Assembly: GCA_038363925.1 (NCBI GenBank)
Contig: JAQQWL010000013.1
Coordinates: 1,364,001-1,428,000 of the forward strand
Direction of reading: 5' to 3'
DNA: 64,000 bases
Source: Apiospora phragmitis
Lineage: Eukaryota; Ascomycota; Sordariomycetes; Amphisphaeriales; Apiosporaceae
Shown here: piece by piece, positions 17,500 through 50,775 of the stretch
Position numbering within the stretch: the stretch's first letter is position 1
How the letters are laid out: each line of letters starts with the position of its first letter
Translations under genes and position numbers: made by a program
The notes under the pieces: generated by a model
Databases searched by the model: none
Told to the model about the DNA's origin: nothing
What the model saw: the letters and a program-made list of their open reading frames with translations, nothing else

Positions 17500-20400
17500 A
17501 TGTCTTCTCCAGCAAATCCCTCAACGGATGTTGGCGAACTGCGCCAGAGACACGCCGCACCCCCTTCAACAGCCAATGACTCGCTAGACTCCCCGCGCCC
17601 GGACAATGCTTCCTCCAACAGCGGCCCGGACACGGACCCGGAACCGAAAGCCCCGAAGACCTTTGGCCGCACTCCGGACGGAACAAGTCAGTAAGGAAAA
17701 TTGACCAACGCTAGATGTGATACTAACCTAGGGCTCGTGTACATAGTATTTACCGTACCAACCACTCATGACATGGTCTCTCAGCTGCTAGACCCTAGAC
17801 AGCCCAAAAACCTGTCAGATGCCATTGTGCTGGCCATACTCGCTGCTCATATAGCCTTGCTCTACTTCCTTCCTGCATCTGTGAAGCAGTATGTCTTCGG
17901 TGTCGTGTTTCTCTTGTGGCGTGCGTCCTACAACTTGGGCATTGGTCTGCTGCTTAGAGCGCAATCGAACGATAACAAGCTCGTCGTCTGGGCGCAGAAG
18001 TGGAAGCTCTTTGTGAACCCTGCTACTGGTGAGAACCCGCGGCCTTGGCTCTACGGGCTTCTGAAGAAGGAGCTAGAAGCCAAGATCCCCGAGGACTACC
18101 AGTTTGAGAAAGCCCCTCTCGAGTACAACACCTGGCTCGTTTTCCGCAGACTCGTCGATCTTATTCTCATGTGTGACTTTGTGTCGTACTGCTTGTTTGC
18201 GATTGCCTGCTCCCACACGCCCGAGGGTGAGTCTGCCCTCACCGGCATCGGCCGCTGGGTATTGGGCTTGATGCTTGTCGGCTTCAATCTATGGGTGAAA
18301 CTTGACGCTCATCGAGTCGTGAAAGACTATGCATGGTACTGGGGCGACTTCTTCTACCTGATAGACCAGGAGTTGACGTTCGATGGCGTCTTTGAGATGG
18401 CCCCCCACCCATGTACTCGATTGGCTATGCCGGCTACTATGGTATTTCCATCATGGCGGCCAGCTACCAGGTCCTGTTCATTTCCATGCTTGCCCATGCG
18501 GCGCAGTTCGTCTTCCTCGTCTATGTGGAGAACCCTCACATTGACAAGACTTACAACCCCCCACCACCTCGCAGACGTGGAGATCCCCAGACGGCAGTGG
18601 ATACTTCAGAAGCAGAACAGACTTATTCTGCGGAGCCCAGAGATGCACCGCCGAGTGACTATCCGTCGGGACCCTCTTCTCAAACCTCTCCCGCTCCGAT
18701 TCATAATCTGCTTGGGCTCAACAATGTCGATCTCTTCCGCACTACCGACTTTTCCTCGTTGCTCATCGTTTGCTACCTCATAGTTGTGGCAGTTGTGACG
18801 CCGGACACGCATTTGTTTCAGCTGCTCTTTGCCTTTCACGCAACGGCCTGGAGACTGTGGTACTCTGTTGGCCTCGGTGCCATTCTGTCCCAACAGTCTG
18901 CGAACAAGACTTGGACGCGCCACTTCCTTAAGTTTGGCGAAAATGTCGACGAAGCATGGAGACAATGGAAGGGGATGTACCATATCTCTCAAGTCATGAC
19001 GTACACGTCCTTCATTGCTGCGTGCTGGAAGATGTACTCGTTCCCGGGCGACTGGGAAAATGGCCCCGCATTGTTGAAGCACGTTCTCGGCGCTGCCCTC
19101 ATTGCTCTCCATATATGGACGGCCGTCAGCATCCACGAGTCGCTTGGAGAATTCGGCTGGTTCTTTGGCGATTTCTTCCTTGACCAGGGCGCGAGACTGA
19201 CATACAAGTCCATCTACCGCTTCTTAAACAACCCCGAAAGGTTTCTTGGCACGGCTGGCCTATGGGGAGCGGCATTGATCACCTGGAATAAGACGGTATT
19301 CCTTCTGGCCTTGACAGGACACCTGTGTACCTTTGGTTTCCTACAATTTGTCGAAAAGCCGCACATGCGGAAAATCTACGGCCGGGAGATTCGCAAAGAA
19401 GCTGGTCTCACCAAATTCTTGCGCTCCTCGCTTCCACCGCCGGTCAAGAACTACTATTCAAGCGTCAACCGAGTCGTGGATGGCACTTCGAACTTCGTGG
19501 AGGACTTTCTGGAGTCCGCTCGCCCAAAGCTGGCTGCTGGTGTATCCACTATCGTCCGAGATACTACTGCCCTATTCAATAATGTCCCGGCTCGCCTAAC
19601 GCTGACCAAACTGTCTCCCGACTTGGCAGGGTTTGACCCGAAGGACTATTCCTTGGAAGTGCGGGGTGAGTCGGCTGTGTATTCGACTCTGACGGAACGG
19701 TCGACCGGCAAGGAGGCGACTAGGGCTCGCTTCCCAGGCGAGCTCAAGACGATGATTCTGGAATATGGCGCCCCTATCAAGGTTAAGTGGACCGCACCAG
19801 CCAACCATAGCAAGAAGGACTGGATCGGACTGTACATGGTTGCGGACAATCGATCTCGAGACGCCACCGAGGTCTCTTCTCTTGGACGTTGGGTGCCAAC
19901 GACGCCTGGCCAATTCGACTCTCCCAGCGCTGACAAGGGCATCCTAATCCACGACCAGCCCGTCACTGGCACCGATGTCGACTTGGTCCGAGGGGAGGTC
20001 GTATTCGAGGGCGACAAGTTATGGTGGACCCGCGGTGTCTTCGAGTTCCGCTACCACCACGACGGCAACCACAACGTCATGTCCATCTCGCAGCCCTTCG
20101 AAATCCAGATCGGTCGGTTCGACGAGGACGACGTCGAGGTGGACACCAAGGGCATGTACGAGACGGCCGTGCAGGACTCGCTCCTGCCGCTGGTGAAGAA
20201 CTGCTTCGACCGCGACCCGGACATTGCGCCCAACACGCCCGACGAGCCCTTCGGGAGCCACGTGGAGCGGGACGGCAAATACGCAAAGCGCGTGGTTTAT
20301 GCGATCCAGCAGATGTTCGGTATTGAGTTCGCCCCCGCCGTGGTCCCCGTCGACGGAAACGTCCGGAAGCTGGCCTGGAGAATCTGCAATGCTAAGAAGG

Positions 20401-20556
20401 CTCTTGTAAGTGACCGCTCTTCTATGATTTAAATTTTGGAGAGCTCGCTCCATTGATCCGTGATCCGTGCAACAGCTAACGTTACTTGTCTGGTAGGCCC
20501 CATATAGTATGTCGCACTCCAAGGGTTCAGCGACGCCCGCAGCCGAGAAGGAGTGA
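17500..20556 (+). CDS. CHO2: Phosphatidylethanolamine N-methyltransferase (frame broken once)
   Basis: Three exons: 17500-17686, 17747-20405 and 20497-20556 (TGA), about 968 aa, the usual length for fungal CHO2. Introns are 60 nt (GTCAGT, branch ACTAACC, CATAG) and 91 nt (GTAAGT...GGTAG). A disordered N-terminus precedes [20 protein letters not shown] and a polytopic membrane protein with two homologous halves. Each half has the PEMT-type pattern: [27 protein letters not shown] in half one; [14 protein letters not shown] and a later [17 protein letters not shown] in half two. The C-terminal third is soluble. The enzyme makes the first SAM-dependent methylation of phosphatidylethanolamine toward phosphatidylcholine in the ER membrane. 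The frame breaks at CCC 18408-18410; one more C gives [15 protein letters not shown] and keeps the rest of the gene in phase. Identity is secure. Confidence 0.93.
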
Positions 20557-46153: not shown

Positions 46154-48593
46154 GGTGATGTCGATGACTATGAGGAGAGGATGGAGGGGGGATGGGAGGG
46201 TAGATGGTCGTCGGTTTGTTTGCTGCAAGGGGGATCTTGGGTTAACATCAAGGGCCTGGTTCCTATGAATAGAAACAAAATTTTGGTGTATCAAGACTGT
46301 GGCCTGTCTTGAATGGGCGTTGACACTCCCGGTAGATCAGTCGAGGGACGTTGGAATTGGTGCTCCAGAAGTGCATGAAGTAAATCACTCACGACTAGCA
46401 AGTTACCAATGTAACTATCGCAATCGAGTAGACAAAGACTGGTGAAAAAAGGCCTGTATCCCCAGCAAAACAATACTTGACGAGCGTGGGTGGTGTGGTG
46501 TTGTGTTGTGGTGGAATTTATTTTTATGGGAGGGGAGGTAGAAATCTGATCATATGGATACTGGGGCATCGAAAAAAAACCCCAAGCTGCATTGAATAAT
46601 ACAATCTTCCTTAGGCATTGGACACGAATTTTTTCTGTGTGGCATTCAATAAGCTACCTTGGACATCGAAAGTAAGCCACCATCACCTCACCATCACCAA
46701 TACATCACCTTATAGGATATTCCTTAGCTGCTATTGCACTTTACTAGAATTTTTGCCAATCCAAGTACTACGATAAGTATTATTATTAACACAGCATCAA
46801 GCTGTCACATCTCTGGTAACCAATAGTCAGTCCCTTTTGAGAAGAATAGAAACCGTGGTTGTTGCCTTACATGGAATTGCCTACAGCTAGAATACGTCCT
46901 AGACGCCATGAAATGATTCAGCATATCCCACATCCATCAACTGCCAGTGGCTTCCCAGCTAAGGGGCGCCAGAGCTCGCCTCAGAGCAAGACGTAGATAA
47001 AACGAAGGAAATGGGGAATAAGAGGCAGAAATTACACCCTAGAGAACTGGGAACTGGTGAGTCTCGACGGAAGAGGAAACACAGGAGAAGTCAGTCAAAC
47101 AGTGATACAGCCTGTTCCCGTCTACGCATACCCCTTAGGATATCAGAAAAACCTCCGGCCACTTTTCACATACTACAGTCGAACCCATTTTGGTTGCTTT
47201 TCGAATCAATACCATGTCAGCCCAGGAGAAACAAAGGAGTCATGGGGAGCAGGTTGCCCTTAAATAATAATAAACTCAAAAGGAAGCCATCATCCTAACG
47301 CCCTTGAATGTCTTAGAAGCTTCCCAAAATAGTTCGGCTCCTATGAATCAATAAAAGCTTGATATCCAGGGACGGGGAGAGGGCACGCGTCTTTGAACGA
47401 AATCCGCTATGCGTAATCCCGCGCAGAATGTTTAGTAGACCGAGGTCTATCACACAGGACGTACTACTCATACATACTGTGCAGTTTACTCCCAAGTCAG
47501 CAAGCAGGAAATCAGGACTGAGGTTGCCAACGACTTCAAGGACTCTCTCTCATAAAGGCTTCCGAGTTACTGTGCCATGTACGGTCTTGACGAGATGGAA
47601 GATGTCTTCGGCAGGCCTTGGCTGCACTGCCATTGCGGCACTGTCGTCGTAACAGGAGAGGGACCATAATGTTTCTTGAAGAGATGGGTCCAGCCAAGCT
47701 GTGGATGTGTCCAGTGACTACAGATGAAGATCGAGCCGGGAAGCGCCTCAAGACAGATATCAGGAACTGCATATATGAAAGCGGAAAAGGCGATGTGTTG
47801 AAATAGGGCTAGGGGTCAGAGCACTCTGGCAGTTGTGCGCTGGCCAATAGCATTCTCTTTTGTCGGGATTCTCGCCTTCTTTTTGGTAGACAACGCTTCA
47901 CTACTACTTACTTGCTCAACATTATCTACATATCTGCCACCAGGCGCTCTCCGTGATGCAACAAGATGCCCAACTCGAATCTCTGAGTCCTTGAATATCA
48001 GGGTTCAGTATGCCTGATTTTGCACGACCAGTCCTTGTTTGGGGCTGACAGAATATCAAAGAGATGAGCCAGAAGTCTGGCGTGTTAGACCAAGGTATCC
48101 AAATTATCCCCCCCCTTTTTTTAAAAGAGTATGAACTACAATATCTCGAGTCTACTGCTCTAATGCAGTCCTCTGTGACTTTGCTTACTTAGATGCTTCT
48201 TTGCTCAGGGGGCACCACAGATATTGACACCAAGTACCGCCAGCCACCGGTACCCCACTGCCACCATCCAAGCCAGCTTCTTGGCTAGGTATCTATTCCA
48301 CCAAAGCCCAATCATTACATACATAGCCATCCTCCGGCTGTTGAAGGACCCTACTCCCAACTGTGCAGAGCCTGCCTGCGTCGTTGGATTTGCTGTACCG
48401 GAACCCGCAAATGTGTAAGTCAATTGAAGTCTGCATATGCCCACACTTAAAACAAGGTGGGCCAATCGGCTAAGGCCGGTCCCACCCATGCACCCAATCA
48501 GGCTAGGGCTGGGTCCAATAATCCATAAGCACTCAGCCACTGGCAGTTCTCAATATATTGTTCAATATCTCACCATCTTTTCATCAAGCAAGC
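46154..48593. other. Intergenic (2.4 kb)
   Basis: Promoter side of the unknown minus-strand gene, then AT-richer DNA up to the tRNA. An A/G-rich tract and several T8-10 runs occur. Short frames here are not convincing. A TATA-like caatatattg lies at 48551-48560, 34-43 bp upstream of the tRNA, at the distance expected for TFIIIB. Confidence 0.45.
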
Positions 48594-48741
48594 GGCCTTG
48601 TGGTCTAGTGGGTAAGTTACTATCCTGTACTTCTACCACGGATATGCAGCTAACTCAAAAAAGTATGATTCGTCCTTCGGGATAACCTTCGGATAAACTC
48701 TGAAATGGACGAGGCCCCGGGTTCGAATCCCGGCAAGGCCC
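48594..48741 (+). tRNA. tRNA-Pro(CGG) with a 24-nt anticodon-loop intron and a 52-nt D-loop insert
   Basis: Acceptor stem GGCCTTG (48594-48600) pairs perfectly with CAAGGCC (48734-48740); discriminator C 48741. A box TGGTCTAGTGG (48601-48611) and B box GGTTCGAATCC (48720-48730) are intact. The anticodon stem CGTCC (48671-48675) pairs with GGACG (48707-48711). The loop reads TT-CGG-G, then a 24-nt intron (48682-48705) at the canonical 37/38 site, then T. The T-arm is CCGGG-TTCGAAT-CCCGG. Between D-loop TAGTGG and TATGATT sits an extra 52 nt (48612-48663). Without it the D-arm reads TAGTGGTATGATTC, the usual tRNA-Pro form. A T6 terminator follows 3 nt after the end. The Pro(CGG) assignment is firm; whether the gene makes functional tRNA depends on the D-loop insert. 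Confidence 0.88.
48612..48663 (+). other. 52-nt spliceosomal-intron-like insert in the tRNA D-loop
   Basis: Begins GTAAGT, the preferred fungal 5' splice site. It has GCTAAC at 48649-48654 with the candidate branch A at 48653, ten bases before the end, and ends in AAG at 48663. Length (52 nt) matches the protein-gene introns of this window (51-161 nt). Precise removal restores the conserved tRNA-Pro D-loop. The weak point is the 3' end: AAG instead of CAG/TAG. Confidence 0.7.
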
Positions 48742-50775
48742 CAATTTTTTATCAATTTATTACCTTCTCTAGGTTTGTTCCTATGTCAGATATTTTGCCT
48801 GGTGACTTGGGCACCTATTAATGTAGAGATCATACACGCCCATATCTTGTGCTAGTGGCAGGTCATGAATCGCAAAGGCATTACCTTCCTTCTCAGCTGT
48901 CTAGGTTAGCATATTCTAAGCTAGTATTCCTTTCCTATGGCTACCAGTCTAGTTGGTAGAGAAGCATGTATTAGTGAACTTTTACACGTGGTTGTTGGAA
49001 CTAGCTCGTTTTGCCGTCAATGTGGGGTCTGGATAGGAGGCAAGGGGTTTGCTAGACTGCCCTCAGCAGATGAGCCAAATGATTTCTGGAGCTTTTCGCG
49101 AATTGCATGCGGCGGTTGATAGACCGCTTCGGACATGCCCTCTATAGAATGGCGAAACTCACATTGATGGATCCCATCCATCGTCTCAGTTCGCCCTGAT
49201 GAGCTCCGATGCCTTGAGATCAATGCGCCGGAGGTTATGCGAGATGGAATGGACATCCTGATCAAACCTAGCCACGAGATTAAGGCAAACGAACTCGTTT
49301 GCAAGGCAGAACGCGAGATGCGCGATGGGGTCCTGTTCGGCGCCAACACCTTCATCACCCAACACGTACGACCCAGGATGATTCCGGCTCTGCCCATTGT
49401 CCCGAACATCCAGGTACCAGGCAAATGGCACAACAAGAAGGCTGGCCGCGTCGCCGGGCCGGACATGGCCTCTTTCAGCGACCTCGGCAGCGGCAGCGGC
49501 AGGTTAAGCAGATGCATGACGGCGTGGAGGCGGGATTCACCTGCATACCTATCTGGGCCTTCGTAGCTGGGATATCTTATTCGTGCTGGGCCAGAAGAGA
49601 GAGTCGCCTAGCGCCACGGCTTCGAAGTATGACATGGCCCAATGGACGGCTTCGAAGATGAGTATGTTTCTGGCTCCTCATCCCTGGCCAATGGTGGTGT
49701 TTTGGATAATGCCTTCCACGATGAGCTCCCCGGGAGGTGGATGTTACACCCGCCACCACCTACCCCGACTGGTGGTAGTGGGCAGTAGTAGTATGCTTAA
49801 CAACGTTGCCTCTTGACCTCGAAAGAAGCGAACGTCGTTAGATCTACCCGAGATACCTTCTGTATGTCTGGATTGATTGGCCAGGATCAGTATGTAGTTA
49901 CCTACTTGGGTGTTTTCGATTGCAAGCATATCTGCAGTCATGGGTAGAAACACATGCCAAGAAGGGTTCGAGGTTTCCGCTACAAGCCCGCCAACATGAA
50001 GCGTGGGAGAGACAAGAAAGAACGGCCTTACTGCATATTCGGTTGGTTGGACTACGACAAGATCACTTGCACAGGGGGGACAGCGTGAGAACTGAAGAAA
50101 GACACCCCCGGCATACAAAATAACTATCACAAGGAACAGGATGCCTTACGGACTGACCGAGCGTCTGTACCTACTTACCTTTTCCTCAATGTAAGGACAG
50201 CATTGGCGAGACGAGCATTCCGGGTCTACAATCCAATAAGAACGCGGTCAATCTGGGCAGTTCTGCATTACTGAGATATGATTGTCGTTCATCTTGGAGC
50301 GGCGTAGCAGGACATTGGAGTTCTGTTCCGCCATCATTCATCCAAAACAAGTGCATTCTTTTGCAACTTTTCACCTTACTGGGTTTACTCCCCCAGAAGC
50401 TCACTCGATTCTCACATTCTCTTAGCATTGGAATTGGTAGGCCTTAAGCAAAAATTTTCATTTCGCTTGTCGTTGCCTTACCTTCAAAATCAACAACCAC
50501 ATTTTCCCTCCTCCAGTCCAACCACACACAATCAACCCATCTTCATCAAAGAAATCTTCTGGATTTTTTTCTTCTCACTCAGAAGACATTCTTACTTGGG
50601 AATTGCATTTACATTTCTAAACCCTTAGAATTTGCATTTGCCTTCCCAAATCCCTCTGAGTTGCAGCTGCATTTCAGAGTCAACTTACCTCCGCCCTTCT
50701 CACTCCAAGTTCCTCCCACCAAACCATACATACTTACCTACCTACTCACAGTCCACCTTGCATTATTCTCTAATC
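48742..50775. other. Intergenic (2.0 kb) with one possible gene remnant
   Basis: Mostly empty. From about 49172 to 49566 a plus-strand frame shows more protein-like text than its surroundings (WIPSIVSVRPDELRCLEINA, then SHEIKANELVCKAEREMRD, FGANTFITQHV). The frame then seems to shift to QVKQMHDGVEAGFTCIPIW. I cannot name a family; it may be a decayed gene or chance. The stretch 50430-50775 is rich in CA/CT and is the likely old 5' leader of the helicase relic. Confidence 0.4.
48745..48750 (+). terminator. RNA polymerase III T-run terminator
   Basis: Six consecutive T residues start four bases after the discriminator base of tRNA-Pro. Confidence 0.85.

Follow-up and report, generated by a model that had tools for sequence, protein, structure and literature searches.

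Putative spliceosomal introns in the D loop and the T loop of proline and arginine tRNA genes of Apiospora phragmitis

In the textbook division of labour, the spliceosome processes mRNA, and an endonuclease together with a ligase processes tRNA. U6 is a pol III gene, and some nuclear rDNA introns of ascomycetes are spliceosomal and are removed by the spliceosome. Several described systems come close to the locus reported here. The fungal U6 snRNA and U3 snoRNA genes resemble it as small structured RNA genes with GT-AG introns; those of U3, termed a pol III gene, show the GTRWGT donor and the RCTRAC motif also seen here, and apart from U3 and U6 no small structured RNA is known, according to the same source, to be frequently interrupted (PMC5832005). 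Unlike these, the genes interrupted in the present case have their promoters inside the gene and encode tRNAs, which fold into a cloverleaf. The ectopic introns reported for Cyanidioschyzon merolae and for nucleomorphs are alike in lying outside position 37/38, in the D and T arms, sometimes with more than one per gene (PMC4090602). However, the C. merolae introns are described as relying on a bulge-helix-bulge and the tRNA endonuclease, and those of the G. theta nucleomorph as measuring 3-24 nt (PMC4090602), whereas the inserts described below are 52-59 nt long and carry spliceosomal signals. Ascomycete nuclear rDNA introns also lie in a non-pol II gene, although there the product is rRNA and the polymerase is pol I (PMC8527467). 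A described spliceosomal intron in a tRNA gene was not found among the open-licence papers listed, judged by titles and the beginnings of abstracts, and a description elsewhere is possible.

The window analysed here is a stretch of 64,000 nucleotides (C13:1364001-1428000) of the 52.7 Mb, 19-contig genome of A. phragmitis; one protein encoded in it, CHO2-like, shares 94% identity with proteins named from Apiospora hydei and A. marii. The window contains a tRNA-Pro(CGG) gene on the forward strand, which an earlier note had described as having paired acceptor, anticodon and T stems, intact A and B boxes and a pol III terminator, a 52-nt D-loop insert that begins with GTAAGT and ends in AG, with GCTAAC near its end, and in addition a canonical intron at 37/38. 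This anatomy is borne out, with a T6 run as the terminator-like element (Table 1). In our view the tRNA gene, of the pol III class, is probably interrupted in its D loop by an intron of the spliceosomal (U2) type, which the spliceosome would remove, and this insert appears to belong to a small set in this genome, comprising two Pro(CGG) genes interrupted after G19, and a Pro(AGG), a Pro(TGG) and two Arg(TCG) genes interrupted between G53 and T54.

Table 1. Location of the features of the tRNA-Pro(CGG) gene (window positions) and of the four genes with a T-loop insert (contig positions).
Feature	Location	Strand	Remarks
tRNA-Pro(CGG) gene	48594..48741	+	3 exons; D-loop insert and 37/38 intron
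Candidate TATA-like element CAATATATTG	48551..48560	+	43 bp 5' of gene; identical 10-mer 5' of C15 copy
Exon 1	48594..48611	+	5' strands of acceptor and D stem, G18G19
A box TGGTCTAGTGG	48601..48611	+	intact; directly abutted 3' by D-loop insert
D-loop insert, spliceosomal-intron-like	48612..48663	+	52 nt; GTAAGT donor, GCTAAC branch-like, AAG end; sister insert in C15 copy
Donor-like GTAAGT	48612..48617	+	
Branch-site-like GCTAAC	48649..48654	+	second A to insert end, 10 nt
Exon 2	48664..48681	+	remaining D arm, anticodon stem 5' strand, anticodon CGG, G37
Canonical 37/38 intron	48682..48705	+	24 nt
Exon 3	48706..48741	+	anticodon stem 3' strand, T arm, acceptor 3' strand, discriminator C73
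B box GGTTCGAATCC	48720..48730	+	untouched; A-box start to B-box start, 119 bp
T6 run, pol III terminator-like	48745..48750	+	
Pro(AGG) with T-loop insert	C11:5946715-5946856		insert 54 nt
Pro(TGG) with T-loop insert	C6:2113750-2113880	-	insert 57 nt
Arg(TCG) with T-loop insert	C1:929255-929400	-	insert 57 nt
Arg(TCG) with T-loop insert	C6:2865276-2865421	-	insert 57 nt

Exact removal of the D-loop insert, which opens with GTAAGTTAC, restores TAGTGGTATGATTC, and removal of both introns leaves a tRNA of 72 nt with all seven acceptor pairs and all five T-stem pairs formed; the anticodon stem, scored on the sister copy described below and identical in the window gene, is paired over 5 bp. The boundary of the inserts is ambiguous by one base at the level of the sequence and is settled by the GT-AG ends: the same tests are passed after a shift of -1, and in the genes with a D-loop insert the loose test of the D loop tolerates a shift of +1 as well. 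In the window, ARAGORN with its bacterial setting and Rfam at the gathering threshold each returned no tRNA. A covariance model (R1), built from Pro genes and partly from the window gene itself with the insert removed, aligns the gene over its whole length despite the insert, with 84.9 bits.

A search of the genome for other Pro(CGG) genes, the check that the earlier note had named, finds a second one on another contig (C15:522588-522743), interrupted at the identical D-loop position. The window gene and this C15 copy are the only two matches in the 52.7 Mb genome of the pattern GTAAGT-N25-55-CTAAC-N45-75-B box, the reversed-pattern control giving none, and the D-loop patterns have no exact match in viral contigs or in bacterial and archaeal genome contigs. 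The exons of the two genes differ at one of 72 positions, the base directly 3' of the insert. The inserts themselves, 52 nt in the window and 59 nt in C15, both open with GTAAGTTAC, carry ATGCAGCTAAC close to the end and terminate in AG; outside these motifs an optimal alignment finds agreement at only 16 of the 30 positions that the shorter insert has there (Fisher p 3e-8 in comparison with the exons). Conservation of exons and splice signals around a diverged interior is as expected if the exons and the signals are selected and the remainder is unconstrained. The likeness of the exons may be due in part to gene conversion, although a conversion sparing only the interior of the insert would be odd. 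The sequence CAATATATT(G) lies 5' of both Pro(CGG) genes (for the C15 copy in L002), and CAATATATT lies 5' of an Ala(CGC) gene (L074); it is perhaps a candidate upstream TATA element of tRNA genes in this genome.

A search with the Pro D arm led to a Pro(AGG) gene in which the T loop, in place of the D loop, is split by an insert of the form GG/GTAAGT...ACTAAC...CAG/TTC. The corresponding genome pattern, GG/GT...CTRAC...AG/TTC followed by a B box, occurs at five places, against two for the reversed-pattern control, and four of the five are full tRNA genes, all with the insert at the same site (Table 1); the fifth place looks like coding sequence. All four inserts carry a GTRWGT donor (GTAAGT or GTATGT) and a CAG end, neither of which the pattern demands. 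Viral contigs, in which at least 120 stretches fit the T-loop pattern, served as a chance control, and there the two features come together in one of the 124 matches listed. After removal of its insert, the exons of the Pro(AGG) gene match those of the five uninterrupted Pro(AGG) genes letter for letter (72/72 in every comparison). The two Arg(TCG) genes are identical to each other (89/89) after removal and differ from an uninterrupted sibling (L100) at one of 89 positions, inside the 37/38 intron; their inserts agree at 52 of 57 positions, with donor, CTAAC and CAG unchanged. For Pro(TGG) and Pro(CGG) the pattern searches yielded no uninterrupted sibling with which exons could be compared. 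The earlier note's proposal that an intron of the spliceosomal type has entered a tRNA gene is strengthened by the C15 copy and by the four genes with a T-loop insert, splicing itself being predicted from the genomic letters. Its further suggestion of a recently gained, introner-like element finds no support, as the two D-loop inserts are well diverged and relatives of the inserts outside the paralogous tRNA genes reach chance level only (14 nt, E 0.14-0.15) in the window and 277 kb of mutually overlapping loci, less than 1% of the genome.

The same note had offered, as its alternative, that the insert merely silences its copy. In its general form this reading holds that intron-like DNA landed in tRNA genes and left pseudogenes, with other tRNAs doing the decoding, and eukaryotic tRNA genes with insertions in the D or T arm are, according to the literature on such introns, regarded for the most part as pseudogenes (PMC4090602). 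Pro(AGG) and Arg(TCG) also have uninterrupted genes, so that the three interrupted copies of these could be dispensable. Acceptor pairing is complete (7/7) in five of the six genes, but the Pro(TGG) gene forms only five of seven pairs, with adjacent U-U mismatches at 5-68 and 6-67 (L123 1490-1620), and may be impaired because of them. The five insert genes other than that of the window have A and B boxes and a run of at least four T 5-37 nt on the 3' side, the largest of these distances belonging to the C15 copy, which has no nearer run of four T, and the D-loop inserts end in a trinucleotide other than YAG. Against these points stand the exons (71/72) and splice motifs kept around a diverged interior, the interruption of both Pro(CGG) copies at one and the same position, and the pattern searches without any uninterrupted Pro(CGG) or Pro(TGG) gene, which would leave CCG codons lacking a tRNA. 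We therefore disfavour silencing and regard it as unlikely.

The signals of the inserts argue for an intron of the spliceosomal type. A GTRWGT donor with GT-AG ends is present in all six, as is a branch-like (A/G)CTAAC, with 10-14 nt after the branch A, and donor, branch motif and spacing fall within the norms given for fungi (GTRWGT, RCTRAC and 6-36 nt to the acceptor; PMC5832005). The acceptor is CAG in all four T-loop inserts, whereas the D-loop inserts end in AAG (window) and GAG (C15), so that neither has YAG, the form given for every fungal U3 acceptor but one (PMC5832005). A group I or group II intron was rejected, the inserts measuring 52-59 nt, against 250-500 nt given for group I introns (PMC10964413), and the window being without an Rfam match.

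D- and T-loop inserts lie outside 37/38, the position of tRNA-endonuclease introns. It may be asked whether they are ectopic introns cut by the tRNA splicing endonuclease itself, as in Cyanidioschyzon merolae and perhaps nucleomorphs, lineages for which non-canonical introns in the D and T arms are documented (PMC4090602). Five of the six insert genes also carry an anticodon-loop intron, which means that the enzyme meets these precursors, and when the D-loop inserts are folded alone the donor block of each pairs with the CTAAC block in the minimum-energy folds; a similar pairing occurs in one T-loop insert (L122) and is absent from the minimum-energy folds of the other three. Such consensus motifs tend to pair with each other, and the joint conservation of donor and CTAAC in the D-loop inserts could partly reflect pairing. 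Yet the endonuclease has no need of GT, CTAAC and AG, all three of which are found in every insert, and no insert has a fold more stable than expected from its shuffles (z -1.4 to +1.0 over the six, minimum-energy folds), which makes this origin quite improbable. The same folding result, along with the unconserved interior of the D-loop inserts, speaks against a retained insert that would turn the transcript into a long tRNA-like RNA with another role, a reading with nothing direct in its favour and one to which we attach very little credence. The pairing and the other counterpoints do not explain away the signals common to six genes.

Both insertion sites should keep the gene recognizable to pol III. 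The D-loop insert follows G19 and leaves the A box wholly on its 5' side; the T-loop insert splits GGTTC, and its own terminal AG rebuilds the B box as AGTTCGANNCC. B boxes that start with AGTTCGA are also present in uninterrupted genes (L109, L110, L111 and L118). A point on the other side is the distance from A to B box, which at 102-127 bp in the insert genes exceeds the 101 bp of L102, the longest among the few genes measured that have no such insert; an automatic value of 111 bp for L116 was discarded as resting on a spurious A-box match. We propose that pol III would transcribe the gene from the boxes that the insertions leave readable, that the spliceosome would take the insert out of the precursor and the tRNA splicing endonuclease the 37/38 intron where present, and that the end product would be an ordinary tRNA; transcription, spliceosomal removal, the order of the steps and function are what we infer from sequence. 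The spliced junctions to be expected would join TAGTGG to TATGATTC or GATGATTC, and CCGGG, CTGGG or GCGGG to TTCGA.

The inventory of tRNA genes bears on the consequences for decoding. Among the genes found, the insert is present in both Pro(CGG) genes (D loop), in the one Pro(TGG) gene (T loop) and in one of six Pro(AGG) genes. No uninterrupted Pro(CGG) gene was seen at the 28 places matching the A-box 11-mer or at the 12 matching a T-arm pattern with at most one mismatch, all of which were read, nor was a further Pro(CGG) gene seen at the 34 places matching a D-arm pattern with up to three mismatches. Six of these 34 are exact and are Pro(AGG) genes, the remainder having Ala-, Gly- or other-type D arms by their matched letters; 21 of the remaining places were judged by matched letters or by kinship to genes read, and the Gly-type L087, L120 and L121 were read. 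Another Pro(TGG) gene did not appear with one 31-mer pattern, which at up to three mismatches matches a single place. A Pro-like consensus used as the query of a similarity search had no match, and since even the five uninterrupted Pro(AGG) genes escaped it, this search is uninformative. The Rfam tRNA family search lists 63 genes, being the 63 scored of 1715 candidates; none is a Pro gene discussed here, 11 lie on C19, a mitochondrial-looking contig, and no insert outside the anticodon loop was found by eye in these 63, a list that favours uninterrupted genes.

Of the 312 proline codons in nine long open reading frames of the window, 82 are CCG (mechanical ORFs, two pairs of which overlap). 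This codon lies outside the range of an inosine anticodon, IGG. As all the Pro(CGG) and Pro(TGG) genes found are interrupted, CCG could be read only if inserts of one kind or the other are taken out, provided that the inventory is right; being pattern-based and incomplete, the inventory would let a strongly diverged gene or one in an assembly gap escape, which could break the argument. The broader proposal is that CCG decoding depends on the spliceosome, every gene for a tRNA able to read this codon (CGG, UGG) being interrupted by a spliceosomal intron in the D loop or the T loop, with splicing and tRNA supply directly coupled as a result, and that introns entered on more than one occasion and only where the promoter boxes stay readable. 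We hold this proposal tentatively, at close to even chances. The sequences suggest that the mRNA splicing machinery may be needed to make some tRNAs in this fungus. If so, pol III precursors of tRNA can be substrates of the spliceosome, and programs that search for tRNA genes can overlook isoacceptors where such introns occur, as the two that missed the window gene would illustrate. It would also tie splicing to decoding in a way open to direct testing, and would bear on the tolerance of new introns, given that both sites used preserve the internal promoter.

Further inserts were sought with three patterns. The A box followed by GTAHGT occurs at 11 places (control 8), with a B box on the 3' side only in the two Pro(CGG) genes, and CTAAC-N38-68-B box at 18 (control 19), where by the matched letters only these two genes fit a tRNA with an insert. 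The half pattern CTAAC...AG/TTC, with the GG no longer demanded, gives six places (control 10), namely the four T-loop genes, C5:3561548 and C4:102852, and at these last two a 5' tRNA half was not found. The former (L126, C5:3561548-3561574) reads CTAAC...CAG/TTCGAATCCGGGTCGTTGCA and resembles a tRNA 3' half behind an intron end, with no 5' half in the preceding 186 nt. One match of CTAAC-N38-68-B box, at C12:145281-145363, is a tRNA-Glu-like, degenerate-looking sequence (GTGGTGTAGTGGCTAAC...GGGGTTCGAT) that is without such an insert. Elsewhere in the window, a stretch of a CHO2-like gene (17500-20411) was considered as an intron for a consensus from the window's own genes and was rejected, being a frameshift and not an intron: compared with four homologues, the gene shows a one-base change of frame at 18399-18411, near a run of C, which is either a sequencing error or a real frameshift.
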